A stretch of DNA of 49,266 bases from a bacterium. GTDB taxonomy: Bacteria > Cyanobacteriota > Vampirovibrionia > Gastranaerophilales > Gastranaerophilaceae. Each line of letters opens with the position of its first letter. Within the stretch, counting starts at the first letter, position 1. The stretch is from the NCBI GenBank assembly GCA_017536545.1, contig JAFXHF010000008.1, positions 1 to 49,266 on the forward strand, read 5' to 3'. The notes beneath the pieces were generated by a model that ran no database searches, was not told the DNA's origin, and saw nothing but the letters and a program-made list of their open reading frames with translations. Below, in pieces: positions 1,122 through 48,541 of this stretch. The position numbers and the translations under genes were made by a program.

Positions 1122-1151
1122 TTGTGAAAATTTTGTTATTTTTATGATAAT
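1122..1151 (+). promoter_or_regulatory. promoter of the AcsE-like gene, near-leaderless
   Basis: A -35 like ttgtga (1122-1127) and a -10 gataat (1146-1151) lie 18 bases apart. The expected start of transcription, about 7 bases after the -10, falls at 1158-1160, at the ATG itself. No Shine-Dalgarno sequence precedes that ATG. Confidence 0.45.
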
Positions 1152-1159
1152 ATTTTTGT

Positions 1160-2071
1160 ATGATTATAATTGGAGAAAACATACATATTATTTCAGCTTC
1201 CGTCAGAGAAGCTTTAGAAAAAAAAGACGAAAATTTTGTCAAAAATTTGATAAAATTTCAGCAAAATGTTGACTGCATTGACCTCAATGTTGGGCCAGCA
1301 AAGAATAAACTTGACAAAATTTTTGAATGGCTAATTCCACTTATTGAAAATCAAAATATATCACTTGATTCCACAAATTCTGAAGCTATAGAACAAGGAT
1401 TAAAACTAATCAAAAATCCAGAAAATTGTTTCATCAATAGCACTTCAAAAGACGAAGAAAAGCTTGAAAAACTAACCGATTTAACAATAGAGTATGGTTG
1501 CAATCTTGTTGCTTTAGCTCTTTCTAAAGAAACTGGAATTCCAAAAACGGCAGATGGACGACTTGAAATCATTTTTGAAATCTACGAAAAATGTATGGAA
1601 AAAGGTATTGAGAGCCATAAAATTTTCTTTGACCCATTAGTTTTACCAATTTGTGCTGATCAATCACAAGCTCAAGAAGCTCTAAATACTATCCAAATGG
1701 TGAAAGAAAGTTTCGAGCCTAAAGTTAATACTATTATCGGCCTATCTAACATCTCAAACGGTTGCCCAAAAGATTTACGACCACTAATAAATAAAGTATT
1801 TGGAGTTTTAGCATATGGTGCAGGATTAGATGCTGTGATTCTTGATGCAAAAGACACCGAACTTGTTAGAATTTTTAAAATGCTAGAGAACAATCAGCCC
1901 ACTTCTTCCGTTGATAAGTTGTACATCAGACTGGCACAAATGATAAATTCATTCCAAGAACTTGAAGAAATTGAATACGACACAAATAGTGCGGAAGAAT
2001 GCAATATCATTAAAGCAGCAACAATTTTACTGAACAAAAAAATATACTCTGATAGCTTTACACAAGTGTAA
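1160..2071 (+). CDS. AcsE-like pterin-binding methyltransferase
   Basis: A TIM-barrel pterin-binding protein of the dihydropteroate synthase superfamily. It most resembles the methyltetrahydrofolate:corrinoid/iron-sulfur protein methyltransferase AcsE. Matching AcsE signatures are MIIIGENIHI at the start, DLNVGPA, LDSTNSEAIEQGLK, CFINSTS, GIPKTADGRL, DPLVLP, GLSNISNGCP (the conserved pterin-binding Asn) and ILLNKKIYSDSF near the end. At 303 residues it is about 40 longer than the Moorella enzyme (262). The extra length sits between residues about 235 and 280, before the last helix. It would move a methyl group between methyl-THF and a corrinoid protein, but no corrinoid protein gene is nearby. 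There is no ribosome-binding site; the -10 box sits directly upstream. It starts a tightly packed run to 5900. Confidence 0.8.
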   Translation: MIIIGENIHIISASVREALEKKDENFVKNLIKFQQNVDCIDLNVGPAKNKLDKIFEWLIPLIENQNISLDSTNSEAIEQGLKLIKNPENCFINSTSKDEEKLEKLTDLTIEYGCNLVALALSKETGIPKTADGRLEIIFEIYEKCMEKGIESHKIFFDPLVLPICADQSQAQEALNTIQMVKESFEPKVNTIIGLSNISNGCPKDLRPLINKVFGVLAYGAGLDAVILDAKDTELVRIFKMLENNQPTSSVDKLYIRLAQMINSFQELEEIEYDTNSAEECNIIKAATILLNKKIYSDSFTQV

Positions 2072-2107: not shown

Positions 2108-4210
2108 ATGAATATCAAAAAGTCTTTATTAACAAGTATTTTAGTTTCAACACTAGTATTTAATATAACACCAGCTATGGCTTTGACTCCAGAAGCAAGT
2201 TTGTTATATCAAGAAGCTTGTAGTGCAGAACATCAACAAGACTTAAAAGGAGCTATCGCAAAACTTGAACAAGCTATTCAAGTTTCAGGTGGTGATGCAA
2301 TGCTTTATACAAAACTCGCAGGCTTGTATACAGAAACTGATAATACTGAAAAGGCTCTTGCAATATACAGAAAAGTTATTGAACTTAAACCCGACGATGC
2401 GTTTGTATACATAAGTATTGGTAGCATTTATGAAACTCAAGGAAAATATAAAGAAGCTCTACAAGCATATGAAAAGGCTCTTGATATCTTTCCAGAATAT
2501 AAATACAACTACTACAATATAGCAAACGCTCAATACCAATTGAGAGATTACAAAAATGCAATCAAGAATTACAACATTTTCTTAGACACATATTCTCAAC
2601 ACTCAGAATCTCGTGAAAATTTAGCATCTTCATATTTAGCGGTTAAAGATTATTCGAACTCTGTCAAACAATTTAAAAGAATTTATGACAAAAACCCTGA
2701 CTCATTTAAAAATTTTGCTGATTATGGCCTTGCCTTATTAAATATTAGTGAGCCAGAAAAAGCCGTTGAAATGTTAGAAAAAGCGATAGAAATAGATCCA
2801 GAAAACAATTCTGCACACCTTGGACTTGCTCAAGCATATCAAGATCTTGGACGAAATGAGATGTCATACGAACAATATCAAGTAGTATTAGCTAAAATCC
2901 CAAACTTAAATACAGTACGTCTTGATTATGCTGATTTGCTTGCTGATATGAACAAAAACACTGAAGCTATTACCCAATACAGTATGTACATAAAAGCTTA
3001 CCCAGATGATATTAAAGGCTATAAAAATATCGCTAGAGTTTATAAAAATTTGAATAACTTTGATAAAGCTTTAGAAAATTACACTATTGCAGAAAAGAAA
3101 GACCCTAAAGATTTAGGGATTAAAAAAGATATTGCTTTATGTTTCCACAGCAAAAAAGATTATACTAATGCTATCAAATATTACGATATAATCCTAGCAG
3201 TTGATCCTGAAGATTTTACCGCAAAATACAATAAAGCATTAGCTCTTCATGCAACAAATAAATTCGAAGATGCAATTGGTTTATATAGAGAAGTTTTAGT
3301 TCTTAAAAACGACAAAACCATCAAAGAAAACTTAAATAGTGCTTTAGTTTCACGAGGGCATGAACTTCTTGAAATTGAAGATTATGATAATGCTATGACA
3401 AACTTCAAAACTGCAATTAAAGATGGTTTTACTGATGGTTCAGCATATTTTGGAATGGCAAAAGTCTACAGAGCACAAGGAAATAATACAAAAGCTTCTG
3501 AAAATTATGAAAGAGCAATAGCACTTGACCCTGATAAAACTCAATATTCAGCAGAATATAGTGAGTTTATTTCATCACTTTACAAGCCAAAAACAACAAC
3601 GCCTGCAAGCTCAACAGAAGAAATAACAGTCCCAGCAATTAGTATTGATATTGATGAACAAAAATCTTCTGCAATTGCAGAAAAACCTAAAGCGGAAACA
3701 AAACCTCAACCTGTTGTTAAAGCATCTTCAATTACAATCAAACAAAATGAAGAATTTATCGCAGAAGGTGATAAGAACTTCAAAAATAATAATTATGATG
3801 CTGCAATCAAAAACTACCAAGATGCACTACAATTAGTTCCAAGTGATGAAATTACACTATTGAAACTTGGTAATGCATTTAAAATAAAAGAAGATAATAC
3901 AAAAGCTATAAACTATTACCAAAAAGCAATTATTGTGAATCCTGATTATACAGATGGATGGTTTAATTTAGGCTTGGCTTACGCAAATGAGAACAATTTT
4001 ATTGAATCTCAAAAAAGTTTTGAAAAAGTAATCGCATTAGATAATGATTACAACCTTGGATATGCTTATTACGCACTAGGTAGAGCTCTTGAACTTCAAG
4101 GAAAAACTAACGAAGCTATTAAAAACTATAAGTTATTCACAAAATACAACAATGACAAAGAGATGATTAACACAGTTCAAGACCAGATCAAACAATTACA
4201 ACAGTTATAA
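2108..4210 (+). CDS. secreted TPR-repeat protein, 700 aa
   Basis: The N-terminus MNIKKSLLTSILVSTLVF, ending around PAMA-LT, is a signal peptide cut near residue 26. The rest is a long array of tetratricopeptide repeats, seen as regularly spaced A..Y..AL...P.....Y..LA patterns from about residue 30 to 485. A low-complexity Thr/Ala/Pro/Lys linker (about 495-545) separates this from three or four more repeats to the C-terminus. TPR arrays bind partner proteins, and export suggests a periplasmic or envelope scaffold. A gagg motif precedes the ATG. It lies 36 bases after the AcsE-like gene and 2 bases before a lipoprotein gene, which suggests co-expression and perhaps a shared complex with that lipoprotein. 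Confidence 0.85.
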   Translation: MNIKKSLLTSILVSTLVFNITPAMALTPEASLLYQEACSAEHQQDLKGAIAKLEQAIQVSGGDAMLYTKLAGLYTETDNTEKALAIYRKVIELKPDDAFVYISIGSIYETQGKYKEALQAYEKALDIFPEYKYNYYNIANAQYQLRDYKNAIKNYNIFLDTYSQHSESRENLASSYLAVKDYSNSVKQFKRIYDKNPDSFKNFADYGLALLNISEPEKAVEMLEKAIEIDPENNSAHLGLAQAYQDLGRNEMSYEQYQVVLAKIPNLNTVRLDYADLLADMNKNTEAITQYSMYIKAYPDDIKGYKNIARVYKNLNNFDKALENYTIAEKKDPKDLGIKKDIALCFHSKKDYTNAIKYYDIILAVDPEDFTAKYNKALALHATNKFEDAIGLYREVLVLKNDKTIKENLNSALVSRGHELLEIEDYDNAMTNFKTAIKDGFTDGSAYFGMAKVYRAQGNNTKASENYERAIALDPDKTQYSAEYSEFISSLYKPKTTTPASSTEEITVPAISIDIDEQKSSAIAEKPKAETKPQPVVKASSITIKQNEEFIAEGDKNFKNNNYDAAIKNYQDALQLVPSDEITLLKLGNAFKIKEDNTKAINYYQKAIIVNPDYTDGWFNLGLAYANENNFIESQKSFEKVIALDNDYNLGYAYYALGRALELQGKTNEAIKNYKLFTKYNNDKEMINTVQDQIKQLQQL

Positions 4211-12357: not shown

Positions 12358-12867
12358 ATGTTAGATAAAAAATTAGAAGCAGCATTTAATGACCAAATCA
12401 ATAAAGAATTATACTCAGAATACCTATACTTAGGTATGAAAGCAATTTTTGCGGATATGAACTTGCCAGGTTTTGTAAACTGGTTCGATGTTCAAGTTCA
12501 AGAAGAAAGAGCTCACGCTATGGGTATGTTTGATTATGTACACGAACGCAATGCTCAAGTAACCCTAGAAGCTATCGACAAACCTGAAATCAAAGGTTCT
12601 ACTCCATTAGAAATCTTTGAACAAGTTCTTGAACACGAAGAATATGTAACATCAAGAATTAATGCACTAATGGATGTTGCTGAAGAAGTTCGTGATAGAG
12701 CTGCATTATCTTTCTTAGACTGGTACGTGAAAGAACAAGTTGAAGAAGAAGCAAATGTTGGTGGTGTTCTAGCTACATTAAAATTAATCGGTGAAGATAA
12801 AAAAGCATTATTGTTACTAGACAAAGATCTCGCAACAAGAACTTTTGTAGCTCCAGTTATTGGTTAA
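12358..12867 (+). CDS. ftnA: ferritin (bacterial non-heme, FtnA type)
   Basis: A 169-residue ferritin. Ferroxidase-site residues are visible in NKELYSEYLYL (Glu17 region), VQEERAHAMGM (Glu50, His53), LEHEEYV (Glu94) and KEQVEEEANV (Glu/Gln126-130). It oxidises Fe(II) and stores iron as a mineral inside a 24-subunit shell. No heme-binding Met typical of bacterioferritin is evident. A strong ribosome-binding site (aaggagg) precedes the ATG. It forms a two-gene operon with the flavodiiron protein, so O2 removal and iron storage are expressed together, and it ends at a strong terminator. Confidence 0.95.
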   Translation: MLDKKLEAAFNDQINKELYSEYLYLGMKAIFADMNLPGFVNWFDVQVQEERAHAMGMFDYVHERNAQVTLEAIDKPEIKGSTPLEIFEQVLEHEEYVTSRINALMDVAEEVRDRAALSFLDWYVKEQVEEEANVGGVLATLKLIGEDKKALLLLDKDLATRTFVAPVIG

Positions 12868-13800: not shown

Positions 13801-14220
13801 TTAATTCAAAGCTCGGCAAGTTCCAATTGCTTTAGCCGTTCTGACACCAAAAACAGGATTATCATAAGTCATTTGAGAAGTTGAAGTATATTCACCAGTT
13901 TGACGGTTGATTATAGCATTTGATATTGAAATATAATCATCAGTCATAGATTGATGTCTAAACATAATTTTATCCGCTTCAAAATATGACACCTCAGAAA
14001 TCGGTTCTCGACGAAGATAAATGCGTTTATATTCTTCTTCCAAACTATAAATTCTAAACAAATCGCTTTGAGAAACTTCGCTACCGTCTTGATTATAGAT
14101 AGTTTCCACAAACTCACAACGAAGAACTTTCATAGCATCAAAATCAGGAACAAACTCATCAGAATTTGCCACACAAACACCACATGCCAATAATAAAACC
14201 GTCGCAAACATTTTCTTCAT
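13801..14220 (-). CDS. small secreted protein, 139 aa
   Basis: The ATG at 14220 is preferred over the one at 14244 because it starts a clean signal peptide, MKKMFATVLLLACGVCVANS, with likely cleavage after ANS. The mature protein of about 118 residues contains beta-rich stretches and two cysteines (LRCEF, GTCRALN) that could form one disulfide. No family is recognised. It lies about 50 bases behind the helicase-nuclease gene on the same strand and may be read through from it; no ribosome-binding site is obvious. Confidence 0.65.
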   Translation of the reverse strand: MKKMFATVLLLACGVCVANSDEFVPDFDAMKVLRCEFVETIYNQDGSEVSQSDLFRIYSLEEEYKRIYLRREPISEVSYFEADKIMFRHQSMTDDYISISNAIINRQTGEYTSTSQMTYDNPVFGVRTAKAIGTCRALN

Positions 14221-14271
14221 ATCAACATGATACAACATGACCAAATCTAGGTAAATAATTTAATATTTATA

Positions 14272-25187: not shown

Positions 25188-26426
25188 TTATGAATCATTT
25201 GAACTTATCATTTGTTCCATTAATGTCTTTGCCATCTCCATTTGGATATCTTTTTTGTCAATAATATTCTCCACTGTTTGCGGTAACACAACATCAGGAT
25301 TTATCCCAAGTTTATTGATATCCTTGCCTTTTGGTGTCAAATACTTCGCAATAGTCAAATTCAATCCTGTTTCATTTGGCATTGGTATAATTTTTTGTAC
25401 CATGCCTTTGCCATAAGTTTTTGTCCCAACTAATTTTGCTCTATGATAATCCTTCATCGCACCAGAAAAAATTTCACTAGCACTGGCACTTGCACCATCA
25501 ACCAAAATCACAACTGGTTTTTCAATATTTACATTATTATCCTGTGCCATAATATCATAATGATAGCCGTTACGACCAACAATACTTACAATTTTACCCT
25601 TTGGCACAAATAAATTCGTCACAAAAACCGCATTAGGTAAAAGACCTCCTGTATTTCCTCGAAGATCTATTATCAAGCCTTCAGCTTTATCTGTGTTTTC
25701 TAAAGCCTCCAAAAATTCGTTCGGAGTTGAGGTACTAATAAAACTCAAAATCTGAATATATCCAATATTTTTATCCATTGAGCTTTTTACAGTTTTTATA
25801 GAAATTTCTTTTCTAATAATTTTTTTCTTTACGATTTCACCATCACGCAAAATATCAATACTAACAAACGTATTAATCGGCCCTTTTACCAGACTCGAAA
25901 CCTGCCCTAATGAAAGACCACTAACTTTTCTATCATCAATCGCCATAATGATATCATTGACCTTCAAATCAGCAAACTGAGCTGGGGTATTTTCAATAAC
26001 ACTAATGATTCGAATTTTACCTGAATCATTAACAATATTTACCCCAATACCTGAAATCTTAGAATTTATTGAGACATTTTGTTCTGCAAATTCTTCTTGG
26101 TTTAAGTACCTTGAATAAGGATCATTCAAACTCGCAAGCATTGATTCTATCGCAACTTTAGCATCGTCTAAAGTTTTGATTTTTCCTCGATAATGATTTT
26201 TCCATCTTAACCAATACTGGTCATTGAAGTTTGGGTCATAATACTCGTTTTTCACAACCTGCCAAGTGTGGTCAAACAACCTCTGTGGCGTAACTTGAGT
26301 TGTATTAATTCTTTGTTCTTCAACATCTAATAATGGGTTATGAGAGGTCACAAAAAAGGCATATATCGCAACTAATGTACAAACTGTTGCAACAAATAAA
26401 ATAACCGTTTTGAACCTTCTTTTCAT
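25188..26426 (-). CDS. ctpA: C-terminal processing protease CtpA (S41)
   Basis: I place the start at the ATG at 26426. It begins MKRRFKTVILFVATVCTLVA, a membrane anchor, and has a plausible -35/-10 pair ending six bases before it; starts at 26468 or 26483 are possible. A PDZ domain follows (about residues 105-185: GIGVNIVND, ENTPAQFADLKVNDIIMAID), then the S41 core with RGNTGGLLPNA. The catalytic Ser is in DGASASASEIFSGA (about 315) and Lys in TYGKGMVQ (about 338). The enzyme trims or degrades exported proteins in the periplasm. It lies downstream of an HExxH protein gene on the same strand. Confidence 0.92.
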   Translation of the reverse strand: MKRRFKTVILFVATVCTLVAIYAFFVTSHNPLLDVEEQRINTTQVTPQRLFDHTWQVVKNEYYDPNFNDQYWLRWKNHYRGKIKTLDDAKVAIESMLASLNDPYSRYLNQEEFAEQNVSINSKISGIGVNIVNDSGKIRIISVIENTPAQFADLKVNDIIMAIDDRKVSGLSLGQVSSLVKGPINTFVSIDILRDGEIVKKKIIRKEISIKTVKSSMDKNIGYIQILSFISTSTPNEFLEALENTDKAEGLIIDLRGNTGGLLPNAVFVTNLFVPKGKIVSIVGRNGYHYDIMAQDNNVNIEKPVVILVDGASASASEIFSGAMKDYHRAKLVGTKTYGKGMVQKIIPMPNETGLNLTIAKYLTPKGKDINKLGINPDVVLPQTVENIIDKKDIQMEMAKTLMEQMISSNDS

Positions 26427-26509
26427 AATTTCATTTAACACCAAGGATTTTTTATAATCAATATACATCCTTGTTAAGAACAAGAATTATTCAAAAATCT
26501 TTATAAATC

Positions 26510-29390: not shown

Positions 29391-30320
29391 TTACAATTTA
29401 AACCTTATTGTCCCTTTAATTCTATTTTTTATTAATGAATTAGTCTGATCAAAAATAGAAGTTGTACCCATTTCAATATTAACTCTATCTATATCTCTTT
29501 TACCAAAAGGATTTATTGATATATAAAATTCAGCAATCTTAATATGTTTTGCGAAATTTGCAGAAACAGTTTCTTTTAAAGATAAGTATTGCCCTAGCTT
29601 GATTTCAGGGGTGAATGAAAAATAGTCATTATAATCCCCATTTGTACTGTTAACTGTTTTTGAAAACTCAGTTGTTAGTGCATAATGCTTTGTGTCATAT
29701 TTAGAGTAAATACTAGATACTTGTCTTAACTCTGCATAGTCAATTTTCTCTTCATATGCTGTTCCTGTAATAATATTACCAAATTTTTCAGATTGATCAT
29801 ATTTAACTTGGTTAATTGAATATTCCATATTATTAAATTTTGAATATGCGGATTTGCGAGAATCTTTTCGATTTGCGTGATATTTTCCACCCTTATAGTT
29901 ATAAGGTCTTTGGATTTGAATTGCGTGAAATTCATCTAACATATCATCCAAAACAACTGCTTCTTCTTCATCATAAGAAGCATACCCATATAAAACATCA
30001 GAATACATATCATTTATCTGATAAATGGATTCATCAATCTCATATACAATCTCATCTTCTACTACTTCTTCTTCAACTCCTGAAGTATCTGCAGTTACAT
30101 CATCAGAAACAATATCAGCTTTTACAATAGGTACACTTTCTTTTATTTCATCAGAGATAGCACCTTTTGATTCTTCAACAGCATCAACTTCATCAGGTAT
30201 ATGATACACAAAGATTTTTGGCGAGTTAGGTTCATCTACCTTATTTTTTGAAGCGACTTTAGCATCACAGGGTAAAATCATTAACATTAAAAGTATTAAA
30301 AGTAAGCTTACCTTCTTCAT
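29391..30320 (-). CDS. predicted secreted/outer-surface protein, 309 aa
   Basis: The signal peptide is MKKVSLLLILLMLMILPCDA. A long acidic low-complexity segment (about residues 45-115, rich in Glu, Asp and Val) follows, then a C-terminal region with alternating residues and ending GTIRFKL. Alternating strands (HYALTTEFSKTV, YFSFTPEIKLGQYLSLKETV, AEFYISINPFG) and the near-terminal Phe suggest a small outer-membrane beta-barrel, but this is inference. No family is recognised. It precedes the FtsB-like gene by about 60 bases. Confidence 0.6.
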   Translation of the reverse strand: MKKVSLLLILLMLMILPCDAKVASKNKVDEPNSPKIFVYHIPDEVDAVEESKGAISDEIKESVPIVKADIVSDDVTADTSGVEEEVVEDEIVYEIDESIYQINDMYSDVLYGYASYDEEEAVVLDDMLDEFHAIQIQRPYNYKGGKYHANRKDSRKSAYSKFNNMEYSINQVKYDQSEKFGNIITGTAYEEKIDYAELRQVSSIYSKYDTKHYALTTEFSKTVNSTNGDYNDYFSFTPEIKLGQYLSLKETVSANFAKHIKIAEFYISINPFGKRDIDRVNIEMGTTSIFDQTNSLIKNRIKGTIRFKL

Positions 30321-30394
30321 ATTTGTATTTTACACCATTTTTTCAAAATCATCAATGGGCAAATATTTAGTATATTTTAAAAAAAGTTCAAGAC

Positions 30395-33263: not shown

Positions 33264-33272
33264 TGCTATAAT
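33264..33272 (+). promoter_or_regulatory. extended -10 of the 33279 gene
   Basis: The 9-mer tgctataat is a perfect extended -10 element. It ends seven bases before the A of the ATG at 33279, so transcription should begin at the start codon. There is no Shine-Dalgarno sequence. Confidence 0.55.
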
Positions 33273-33278
33273 TATCCT

Positions 33279-34493
33279 ATGTTTGATATATCAACTCCAG
33301 AAACATATATTCCAACCATATTTCTAACTCTTGTGGCAATTTTTGTTTCCATCTTATATAAAGATGCGAAAAAAAATATCAAAGAGCATACAAAAGATTT
33401 GCCATATTACCATGAAATATCTGTTTCTATGAACTATATTGAACGCAATATTTTGGAAGATGGTAGATTTAAATATCAAAACAACGTTGATCCTGAAATT
33501 GTTCATAAAAACGAAATATATAATGCGTTAAGACATGCTGGCGTGTTGTATTCAATGTATTTATACGAAAAATTAGGATTAGAAACAAAATATAAACAAT
33601 CAAGAATTAAATCATCAAAATATTTCATAGATAGATATATCAAAAAACTAGACGAAAGTAGATATGCAGTTGTTTCTATTCCAGAAGAAGAGCAAATCAA
33701 ATTCCCAATTGCAAAATCAGGAGCTTCTGGAGTTGCCCTTTGTGCCTTAGCAAACCTATACAAAGATGGCGAGATTGAATTGGAAGTTTTACAAGGATTA
33801 GGTGAATTTTTACTTTCATTACAAAACGAAGAAGGCAATGTTTATGCATACTACGATATTGAAAAAAATATCGTAAACAAACTAGCTGAAGCTATATTTT
33901 ATCCTGCGGAAGCTGCTATTGGTTGGATTCACTTATACCTAGTTGATCCTCAAGAAAAATGGCTTACTGCTGCAAAAAACACCCTTAATTACATTATAAA
34001 ATCAAGAAAATCAATGGAGTTAGATATTCCTTTTGACCATTGGTCAGTTCTGGCAATTGAAGAGTTATTCAAAAATGATCTTGTTACCCCTGAAGAAAGA
34101 AATACATACAAAATGTATGCTGAACAAATGGCTATCCCGACATTATCAGACCAGATTACAAATAAAAATAATAGCTATTGTGGAGCTTTTAAAGACAACA
34201 TTAGACCTTGTAGCCTAGGAACTATTATGGAAGGTTTAGCTGCAATTTATTTTTGCACAGATAGTAAACCTCTAAAAAAGGTTATCTTTAAATCACTTTC
34301 TATTGGTAATATTTTCTTAAGCAAAGTTCAGGTTAAAACAGGAGTACAAGCAGGTGGACTTCCGAACTCTGCAAACTGGGTAAAACCTGGAGTTACACCA
34401 AATGCAAGTATTATAAGAATTGACAACGTTCAACACGTTGTTTCAGGTTGGTTAAAATTCCAAAATATCCTAAAAGTTACTGACAATTACTAA
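33279..34493 (+). CDS. membrane-anchored alpha-toroid protein, 404 aa
   Basis: One N-terminal membrane helix (YIPTIFLTLVAIFVSILY) is followed by a soluble, mainly helical domain of about 370 residues. Repeating helical pairs (NALRHAGVLYSMYLYEKLG, ASGVALCALANLY, FYPAEAAIGWIHLY, DHWSVLAIEELF, LGTIMEGLAAIYF) suggest an (alpha/alpha)-barrel like those of glycosidases, epimerases or terpene cyclases. Motifs VHKNEIYNALRHAG and KLAEAIFYPAEAAIG may line the active site. The exact function is not known. It appears to be a leaderless gene. Its 3' end overlaps the convergent diguanylate cyclase gene by 17 bases. Confidence 0.7.
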   Translation: MFDISTPETYIPTIFLTLVAIFVSILYKDAKKNIKEHTKDLPYYHEISVSMNYIERNILEDGRFKYQNNVDPEIVHKNEIYNALRHAGVLYSMYLYEKLGLETKYKQSRIKSSKYFIDRYIKKLDESRYAVVSIPEEEQIKFPIAKSGASGVALCALANLYKDGEIELEVLQGLGEFLLSLQNEEGNVYAYYDIEKNIVNKLAEAIFYPAEAAIGWIHLYLVDPQEKWLTAAKNTLNYIIKSRKSMELDIPFDHWSVLAIEELFKNDLVTPEERNTYKMYAEQMAIPTLSDQITNKNNSYCGAFKDNIRPCSLGTIMEGLAAIYFCTDSKPLKKVIFKSLSIGNIFLSKVQVKTGVQAGGLPNSANWVKPGVTPNASIIRIDNVQHVVSGWLKFQNILKVTDNY

Positions 34494-46218: not shown

Positions 46219-46246
46219 TTGACATCTCTGTTTGAAATAATATAAT
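46219..46246 (+). promoter_or_regulatory. consensus promoter of hisS, leaderless
   Basis: A perfect -35 ttgaca (46219-46224), 16 bases, and a perfect -10 tataat (46241-46246). The -10 ends seven bases before the A of the hisS ATG (46253), so the transcript should start at the codon itself. No ribosome-binding site exists. Confidence 0.7.
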
Positions 46247-46252
46247 TGACTT

Positions 46253-47494
46253 ATGGCTAATATATTAAAAGTTTTAAAAGGAACAAAGGACATTTTGCCA
46301 CAAGAAATTGAAATGTGGCATTTTATAGAACAAAAAGCAGACGAAGTTTTTTCAAAATATGGATTTAAAGAAATTAGAACTCCTATTATTGAAGTTACAG
46401 AACTTTTTTCTCGTGGTGTTGGCGATACAACTGACATCGTAAACAAAGAAATGTACACTTTTGAAAAAAGTGATCGTTCAATTACTCTAAGACCAGAAAA
46501 TACTGCTGGTGTTGTTCGTTCCTATATCGAAAATGGTATGTCTAGACTTTCTGCCCCTGTAAAACTTTGGTATAAAGGGCCTATGTTTAGATATGAAAGA
46601 CCTCAAGCTGGTCGCCAAAGACAATTCCACCAAGTTGGTGTTGAAATGTTTGGTATAAAACAGGCAACTGCTGATGCTGAAGTTATTTTGATGGCAGTTA
46701 ATTATTTAAAAGCTCTTGGTCTTAATGATTTGGAAGTTGAATTAAACTCTCTAGGTTGTCCAACTTGTCGTGATGAGTTTAAAAATAGACTTAAAGAAGT
46801 TTTAAAACCTTATTTTGAAGAACTTTGCGAAGATTGTCAAAACAGATATGAAAAAAATCCTCTAAGACTTTTGGATTGCAAAGTAGATTCTTGTAAAAAG
46901 ATTTTTGAAAAACCTGAAGTTCAGGAAGTTATAAATTCTGATTTTATTTGTGATGAATGTGCAGAACACTATACAGAATTGAAATTATATTTAGATAGAA
47001 TGCAAGTTAAATATAATGAAAATAAACTTCTTGTAAGAGGTTTGGATTACTATAACAGAACAGTTTTTGAAATCAAATCAAACAATTTAGGTTCACAAAA
47101 TGCTGTTTGTGGTGGTGGAAGATATGATGCTTTAGTTGGTCAACTTGGTGGAGAACCAACTCCAGCTGTTGGTTTTGCAATGGGTATGGAAAGATTAATT
47201 TCACTTTTACCAGAAAAAGAATCTAAAAAACTAGACGGTTACATTGTTTCAAACTTCCCAACAGATGCATTTATTCTTGCGGAAGAGTTAAGAAAAGATG
47301 GGTTAAATGTAGAGTTTGATTTGTCTAATAAAAAATTCACAAAACAACTTGAAAAAGCAGCAAAAGTTGCAAAATATGCATTTATTTTAGGTGAAGAAGA
47401 AATTTTGAAACACCAAGTTTCTATCAAAAACCTTGAAACAGGCCAACAAATTAAAGCCGATAGAGGCTTTGCACTAAAAATGCTTGATTTTTAG
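46253..47494 (+). CDS. hisS: histidyl-tRNA synthetase
   Basis: A 413-residue class II synthetase. Motif 1 is RTPIIEVTELFSRG, motif 2 is YKGPMFRYERPQAGRQRQFH, the histidine-specific loop is GLDYYNRTVFE, and motif 3 is AVGFAMGMERLI. Paired cysteines (CPTCRDEF, CEDCQNR, CKVDSCKK, CDECAEHY) occur in the insertion domain, as in related bacterial HisRS. The C-terminal anticodon-binding domain spans about 325-413. It charges tRNA-His. The predicted start of transcription coincides with the ATG, so translation is probably leaderless. Confidence 0.97.
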   Translation: MANILKVLKGTKDILPQEIEMWHFIEQKADEVFSKYGFKEIRTPIIEVTELFSRGVGDTTDIVNKEMYTFEKSDRSITLRPENTAGVVRSYIENGMSRLSAPVKLWYKGPMFRYERPQAGRQRQFHQVGVEMFGIKQATADAEVILMAVNYLKALGLNDLEVELNSLGCPTCRDEFKNRLKEVLKPYFEELCEDCQNRYEKNPLRLLDCKVDSCKKIFEKPEVQEVINSDFICDECAEHYTELKLYLDRMQVKYNENKLLVRGLDYYNRTVFEIKSNNLGSQNAVCGGGRYDALVGQLGGEPTPAVGFAMGMERLISLLPEKESKKLDGYIVSNFPTDAFILAEELRKDGLNVEFDLSNKKFTKQLEKAAKVAKYAFILGEEEILKHQVSIKNLETGQQIKADRGFALKMLDF

Positions 47495-47507: not shown

Positions 47508-48506
47508 TTATAAATATTTCCATCTCAAATTACGTCTTATTTTCTTGGATGGAATTATATTTAGAATCAATGCAATTATTTTATTAACAAACCAAACAAG
47601 TTTTATGTTTCTTGTTTTAATAAATAACCTTAACCTTAAAGGTAAATTTTTGTAAGAACCACCCTCACTTGTTGAAATATAAGGACGAATAAACTCATCA
47701 TATATTTCAAAAAATTTATTTGTAAGGTTTTCTATTTGATCTTTTGAATACCCAATAACCAACATACGTCCCAACGGTTCTTTATTTAAAAATCTTGCAA
47801 AATAAAAAGATCTTGTTTTATAAAGTTCAGTATCTTTATAAAACTCTCCTAGATGGTCAAGCCATTTTTTTATTTGGTTATATAATTTATCAGTATTATT
47901 TCTGTTCTTTATATGATCACCTGCTACATGAACACGATAATTATATTTACTAATTGTATTTAAACTATATCCATTTCCTTTTAATACAGAAGTTAATTTA
48001 TGAACAAATATGCCATCTTCCGCAGGTTGAATTCCTTCTGGAAATCTAATCCATTTATTTACATCTAAAACAGATTTTCTAATAAACAATGCCCATGCTG
48101 TATAACAATACAAATGTTTTAAATATTTTTTATCAAAAGTATCACTTACTAAAACAAAATTACTTTTTTCATTTTGAGCTATGTTATAACAAGTTTCATA
48201 AAAACATTCGTCAATAGTGTCATCTGAATCCAAAAAGTGAACAAATTCTCCATTTGCATATGACAATCCTAAATTTCTAGCAACAGAAACTCCTTCATTT
48301 TCTTTATCAATATACTTAATACTTTTTGGGTATTTTTTTGCATAATCTAAACAAATAGAACCTGAATTATCTGTACTTCCATCATTTACAATAATAATTT
48401 CTATATTATCTAATGTTTGGTTTAAAACAGAATCAATACATTCTGCAATATATTTCTCTACATTATAAACAGGTACTATTACTGAAACCTTTACAATCTT
48501 TTCCAT
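47508..48506 (-). CDS. GT2 family glycosyltransferase, 332 aa
   Basis: A family 2 glycosyltransferase: VSVIVPVYNVEKYI, IIIVNDGSTDNSGSICLDYA, NEGVSVARNLGLSYANGEFV and the DxD-like LDSDDTID. A C-terminal region rich in basic and aromatic residues may sit on the membrane. It transfers a sugar to a surface polysaccharide or glycoprotein; donor and acceptor cannot be told. The N-terminal half is similar to the GT2 domain at 22919. It is divergent from an XRE regulator (48667), and an O-acyltransferase lies just beyond. Confidence 0.88.
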   Translation of the reverse strand: MEKIVKVSVIVPVYNVEKYIAECIDSVLNQTLDNIEIIIVNDGSTDNSGSICLDYAKKYPKSIKYIDKENEGVSVARNLGLSYANGEFVHFLDSDDTIDECFYETCYNIAQNEKSNFVLVSDTFDKKYLKHLYCYTAWALFIRKSVLDVNKWIRFPEGIQPAEDGIFVHKLTSVLKGNGYSLNTISKYNYRVHVAGDHIKNRNNTDKLYNQIKKWLDHLGEFYKDTELYKTRSFYFARFLNKEPLGRMLVIGYSKDQIENLTNKFFEIYDEFIRPYISTSEGGSYKNLPLRLRLFIKTRNIKLVWFVNKIIALILNIIPSKKIRRNLRWKYL

Positions 48507-48541
48507 AATAAAATTTTATTCTATATAAAAAGTAATTAAAT

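Follow-up and report, generated by a model that had tools for sequence, protein, structure and literature searches.

How does expression of hisS begin in a gut bacterium of the Gastranaerophilaceae (Gastranaerophilales, Vampirovibrionia), where a consensus promoter ends only seven bases before the A of the start codon? An earlier note on this DNA had proposed that hisS and several other genes are transcribed without a leader, and that the genome mixes leaderless and leadered mRNAs. The window that we analysed, that is, the whole stretch of DNA, is contig JAFXHF010000008.1 (49,266 nt) of assembly GCA_017536545.1, which comprises 29 contigs and 1,904,638 bases. In the NCBI taxonomy the order stands under Candidatus Melainabacteria, in one clade with Cyanobacteriota. 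Positions are counted upstream from the ATG, the base before it being -1; a -10 element is placed by its first base.

The hisS promoter

The following features of the window make up the hisS locus:
46219..46224, + strand: hisS -35 element TTGACA
46241..46246, + strand: hisS -10 element TATAAT, at -12 from the ATG
46252..46253, + strand: predicted initiator T(-1)/A(+1); its A opens the hisS ATG and is the putative RNA start
46253..47494, + strand: hisS, histidyl-tRNA synthetase (Pfam tRNA-synt_His from residue 10), predicted leaderless mRNA

The promoter is present as the earlier note had described it, TTGACA being followed by a 16 bp spacer, TATAAT, the six bases TGACTT and the ATG at 46253. 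We compared it with those of 80 relatives, giving 81 sequences with the window (in three loci the start was moved to a nearby ATG). A match to TATAAT of at least 5/6 lay at -12 in 80 of the 81 sequences and at -13 in one (L077); the hexamer was exact in 77. The base at -1 was T in 79 sequences and C in 2. In 73 of the 81 promoters an element matching TTGACA in at least 5/6 positions stood 16-18 bp from the -10, which makes this a conserved promoter of the sigma70 type. While the distance between -35 and -10 varied (16, 17 or 18), that between -10 and ATG was constant (80/81), even though the six nucleotides filling it occurred in 49 different versions. Mean pairwise identity was 0.97 in the -10 element and 0.95 at -1, but only 0.39 at -6..-2; further upstream it was 0.34 at -60..-37 and 0.43 at -29..-13. 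No Shine-Dalgarno (SD)-like motif was found upstream of hisS in any of the 81 sequences.

Outside the family, we found no leaderless hisS at the chosen start in 30 loci from the order, class and phylum (one had no usable start), and several of these genes were SD-led. Judged by sequence, a leaderless hisS thus seems to be characteristic of this family. With hisS itself removed, the flanks of the family's hisS loci showed a modest peak at -12 (7/177 genes with at least 5/6 matches to TATAAT, 16/177 with TANNNT).

A one-base register in the genome and the family

The earlier note had suggested a search of the genome for enrichment of -10 boxes at this distance. We used 40 stretches plus the window, 806,328 of the 1,904,638 bases (42%; GC about 0.33). 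Open reading frames of at least 80 amino acids were called from the first ATG with coding-like sequence downstream, giving 670 genes, 624 of them with usable upstream sequence. Genes that were divergent from their neighbour or preceded by a gap of at least 80 were taken as operon-leading (n=402), those with a gap below 30 as intra-operonic (n=139). Exact TATAAT at -12 preceded 20 of the 402 leading genes and 1 of the 139 intra-operonic genes. At other positions upstream of the leading genes its mean count was 0.95 and the maximum 6, with 1-2 at each of -15 to -13 and at -11. When the 45 bases upstream of each gene were shuffled 300 times with dinucleotides preserved, the count at -12 averaged 0.76 and never exceeded 4. 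Matches of at least 5/6 at -12 numbered 38, against a shuffle mean of 9.6 and maximum of 20, and TANNNT stood there in 46 of the 402 leading genes, against 4-20 at any one position from -20 to -13. We estimate the excess at about 27 of the 402 leading genes, a lower bound because more degenerate -10 boxes remain uncounted. The peak thus stood, as had been predicted, 7 positions before the ATG; it was one base wide and nearly limited to genes that lead an operon and lack an SD site.

The base at -1 is part of the register. Among 34 leading genes with TA...T and at least a 5/6 match to TATAAT at -12 (the -12 genes), 31 had T at -1, as against 199 of the 368 other leading genes (P=1.4e-5). Only 1 of the 34 was preceded by an SD site, versus 130 of the 368 (P=2.7e-5). 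Without gene calling, the 806 kb contained 44 instances of TATAAT-N5-T-ATG, compared with 4-10 for other spacings; when an open frame of at least 60 codons was demanded, 34 remained, against 1-4. This spacing showed no excess when -1 was A, C or G (14 matches versus 12-19). In the whole genome, TATAAT-Nk-TATG, counted on both strands, matched 11, 78 and 23 times for k = 4, 5 and 6. The actual signature is TATAAT-N5-T-ATG. Neither the T at -1 nor the conservation of the register throughout the family had appeared in the earlier note; nor had gene 30320, described below.

Only ATG was enriched. Leaderless GTG or TTG starts showed no excess, and SD-led GTG and TTG starts (4 and 6, versus 9-10 for control triplets) suggest that this genome has few non-ATG starts in any case, so the lack of an excess carries little weight. 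A richness in A downstream of the AUG in the -12 genes was weak (unadjusted P 0.0015-0.0065 at 3 of 13 positions). An internal SD-like start candidate was seen in 3 of the 34 genes, among them hisS, at codon 14. The Pfam domain begins at residues 3-10 in gmk, aroQ, tag, mnmG, the rex-like gene, hisS and others, leaving little room for a downstream start; we rejected such starts for genes whose domain begins within 10 residues, and codon 14 of hisS is implausible as the true start since the domain runs from residue 10.

Named from their Pfam matches, the -12 genes include hisS, mnmG, tgt, gmk, aroQ and tag, together with genes for an amino acid kinase with a PUA domain, a Rex-like regulator, AnmK, a Mur ligase, a ribonuclease III domain protein and others; for 8 of the 34, Pfam gave no match. 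By these matches, the predicted leaderless set is housekeeping-like.

In all 152 sampled genomes of the family, TATAAT-N5-TATG was more frequent than the same pattern read backwards, with 78 versus 12 in the genome of the window and 36 versus 25 in G194, among the weakest. In the 31 genomes of the family where spacings were compared, k=5 exceeded k=4 in all 31 and k=6 in 28; in the three exceptions (G170, G204 and G306) k=6 exceeded k=5, so the strictness of the register differs among genera. Elsewhere in the order, families f6 and f7 were mildly enriched for TATAAT-N5-TATG, and f2, f3 and f4 little or not at all; at gene level, f2-f7 gave 9 of 183 at -12. The seven genomes of f8, a family of the same class, had summed matches of 46, 185 and 179 for k = 4, 5 and 6, and a broad -10-like hump at -11..-15 without a sharp peak (G122, G249, G253 and others), as if their register were looser. 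Four genomes of f11 gave 17, 73 and 48, with only 3 of 157 leading genes. By pattern counts, most other sampled families of the phylum, presumably the oxygenic ones, had no peak at -12.

Further genes of the window and their orthologues

The remaining candidates in the window are listed here with their promoter elements:
33264..33272, + strand: extended -10 TGCTATAAT of gene 33279 (TGC followed by TATAAT), then six bases and the ATG
33279..34493, + strand: gene 33279, 404-aa protein without Pfam match, predicted leaderless
48513..48518, - strand: -10 element TAAAAT of the GT2 gene, at -12
47508..48506, - strand: family 2 glycosyltransferase (GT2; Pfam PF00535 from residue 8), predicted leaderless
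30327..30332, - strand: -10 element TAAAAT, preceded by TG, at -12 of gene 30320
29391..30320, - strand: gene 30320, 309-aa protein without Pfam match, candidate leaderless gene
1148..1153, + strand: -10-like TAATAT at -12 of gene 1160, fitting TANNNT
1160..2071, + strand: gene 1160, pterin-binding enzyme (Pfam PF00809; AcsE-like in the earlier note), probably leaderless
26433..26461, - strand: ctpA promoter TTGATT-17-TTAAAT, conserved, with a poor -10 (T at the second position)
25188..26426, - strand: ctpA, S41 C-terminal processing peptidase (Pfam PF03572), probably leaderless

The extended -10 had been reported seven bases before gene 33279, and we found it so. This gene had matches in 6 of 30 genomes, and its sole close orthologue, in a locus of the same genus (L182), keeps TATAAT at -12. 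The GT2 gene, thought less clear, shares the spacing, and the strong SD sites noted nearby are indeed there, at 12358 (AAAAGGAGGCATATT) and 48667 (AAAAAGGAGGCATT). Gene 30320 likewise has six bases between TGTAAAAT and its start; by eye, the N-terminus of its product resembles a signal peptide. On the minus strand, an ATG at 14220 has TATCAT at -12 (14220-14232) inside the TTG-started frame 13801-14244, of which it may be the true start.

Two further genes had been credited with the same geometry, and both have it, though with poor matches to the -10 consensus. For gene 1160, TANNNT stands at exactly -12 in 11 of 17 loci, its own included, the remainder being mostly SD-like, but TAATAT taken alone is a weak match. 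For ctpA the spacing of six is as proposed, and 13 of 30 loci have a -10 (TTAAAT, TTTAAT or TATAAT) at -12 and 3 more have it at -13, a spacing of seven, the 30 including some copies of a second, SD-led ctpA paralogue; the -10 itself is poor and lacks the A at the second position of a canonical sigma70-type element. Most of the family's orthologues in which the register is kept have TTAAAT, and the conserved block TTGATT-N11-TTGNTGTTAAAT gave 13 matches in 12 of the family's 30 genomes searched. No regulon sharing the block was seen in these 30, most matching genomes having one match. The ctpA promoter may belong to a special class, possibly activated or read by an alternative sigma factor. 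Two of the ctpA orthologues (L259 in G361 and L262 in G187) are each reported with one internal TAA, which may reflect an assembly error or decay.

Orthologues of gmk, ctpA and gene 1160 keep the same register in many genera and have SD leaders in others. For gmk, at least 5/6 of TATAAT stood at -12 in 15 of 28 genomes of the family with a match (30 searched), in one via an alternative start, and at -13 in one locus (L172); several gmk orthologues are SD-led, and that of L171 has both TATAAT about 20 nt upstream and AAAGGAG.

Where the transcripts start

The -12 peak without SD sites, alongside SD-led genes, supports the proposed mixture of two kinds of mRNA. In the first, a sigma70-type -10 element exactly at -12 would direct RNA polymerase to begin at the A of the ATG; the mRNA would then open with 5'-AUG and, lacking a leader, presumably be translated by 70S ribosomes independently of SD pairing. 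mRNAs of the second kind would carry a leader with an SD site. A T(-1)/A(+1) pair seven positions after the -10 is how a sigma70 start on A is expected to look. We infer the RNA start on A, and translation from that AUG, from the one-base register, the T at -1, the lack of SD sites, the near restriction to operon-leading genes and the conservation. We therefore hold it very probable that sigma70 promoters with the -10 at -12 start RNA on the A of AUG, making leaderless mRNAs beside SD-led ones.

At many of these promoters RNA might instead start 1-3 bases upstream of the A, leaving a tiny leader. A leader of one or two bases is compatible with the DNA sequence, several genomes have slightly raised counts for k=6, a few orthologues (L077 hisS, L172 gmk and three ctpA loci) have a spacing of 7, and distances from -10 to start are known to vary by several bases, according to the portion of PMC3160421 available to us. 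However, T(-1)/A(+1) is fixed at one base, and the six-base spacing shows no excess without the T, which fits a start on A; we regard a tiny leader as rather unlikely. Alternatively, a leaderless start could coexist with an upstream, SD-leadered transcript that gives most of the protein for some genes, but SD-like motifs in 0 of 81 hisS upstream regions and 1 of 34 -12 genes make such dual transcripts quite improbable. That TATAAT falls near ATG by chance in an AT-rich genome (one -12 match, inside a coding region at 3395, is such a case) is practically out of the question and refuted for the set as a whole, weak single cases apart, by the absence of the peak from shuffles, neighbouring positions and backwards patterns and by its weakness or absence in similarly AT-rich sister families.

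Leaderless genes with RNA starting on the A are of a known kind; the novelty lies in the lineage, in a register exact to one base with T at -1, and in the fixed state of hisS. In the part of the survey by Zheng et al. 2011 that we draw on (PMC3160421), leaderless 'TA-led' genes have TANNNT about 12 bp upstream and no SD, and many Cyanobacteria are said to use neither these nor SD-led genes. The genes described here resemble the former, having TANNNT about 12 bp upstream and no SD, being single or first in their operons and standing alongside SD-led genes; unlike the Cyanobacteria of that account (PMC3160421), this sister lineage uses both kinds, and its register is exact to one base with T at -1. 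As in mycobacteria, in so far as the extract of PMC4633059 describes them, the start codon is 5'-terminal (here by prediction) and SD-leadered genes occur alongside, but mycobacteria use ATG or GTG whereas here only ATG is enriched, and the leaderless fraction looks smaller here. Start-codon needs of leaderless mRNAs have been described (PMC4633059, PMC9031893, both in extract). The StartLink/GeneMarkS-2 grouping, in the excerpt of PMC9581028, assigns Cyanobacteria non-SD initiation of unknown mechanism with weak signals; the signals of oxygenic cyanobacteria, a related phylum, are weak there, in contrast to the sharp -12 peak of the present family. Nakagawa et al. reported AT-rich biases at -20..-10 in Cyanobacteria, which may reflect leaderless mRNAs or S1 (PMC5397173, in the passages at hand). 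The terms 'leaderless' and 'Melainabacteria' were not found together in any of the openly licensed papers searched.

The predicted starts would place robust leaderless initiation in the non-photosynthetic sister group of cyanobacteria, and the T-ATG register would give gene finders a sharp start-codon rule for hundreds of gut genomes. A more far-reaching proposal is that leaderless and SD-led genes of the family form two discrete heritable states, one with the -10 exactly at -12 and no SD, the other with a longer SD leader, and few intermediates, that orthologues switch between them, that hisS was fixed as leaderless in the ancestor of the family, and that the set (hisS, mnmG, tgt, gmk, the rex-like gene and others) is co-regulated via 70S initiation. 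Taken whole, we think this unlikely; the switching of orthologues makes evolution from SD-led to leaderless genes directly testable. In two loci, divergent genes that are both predicted to be leaderless are separated by only 56 bp (L097:2470-2525) and 45 bp (L115:15555-15599).
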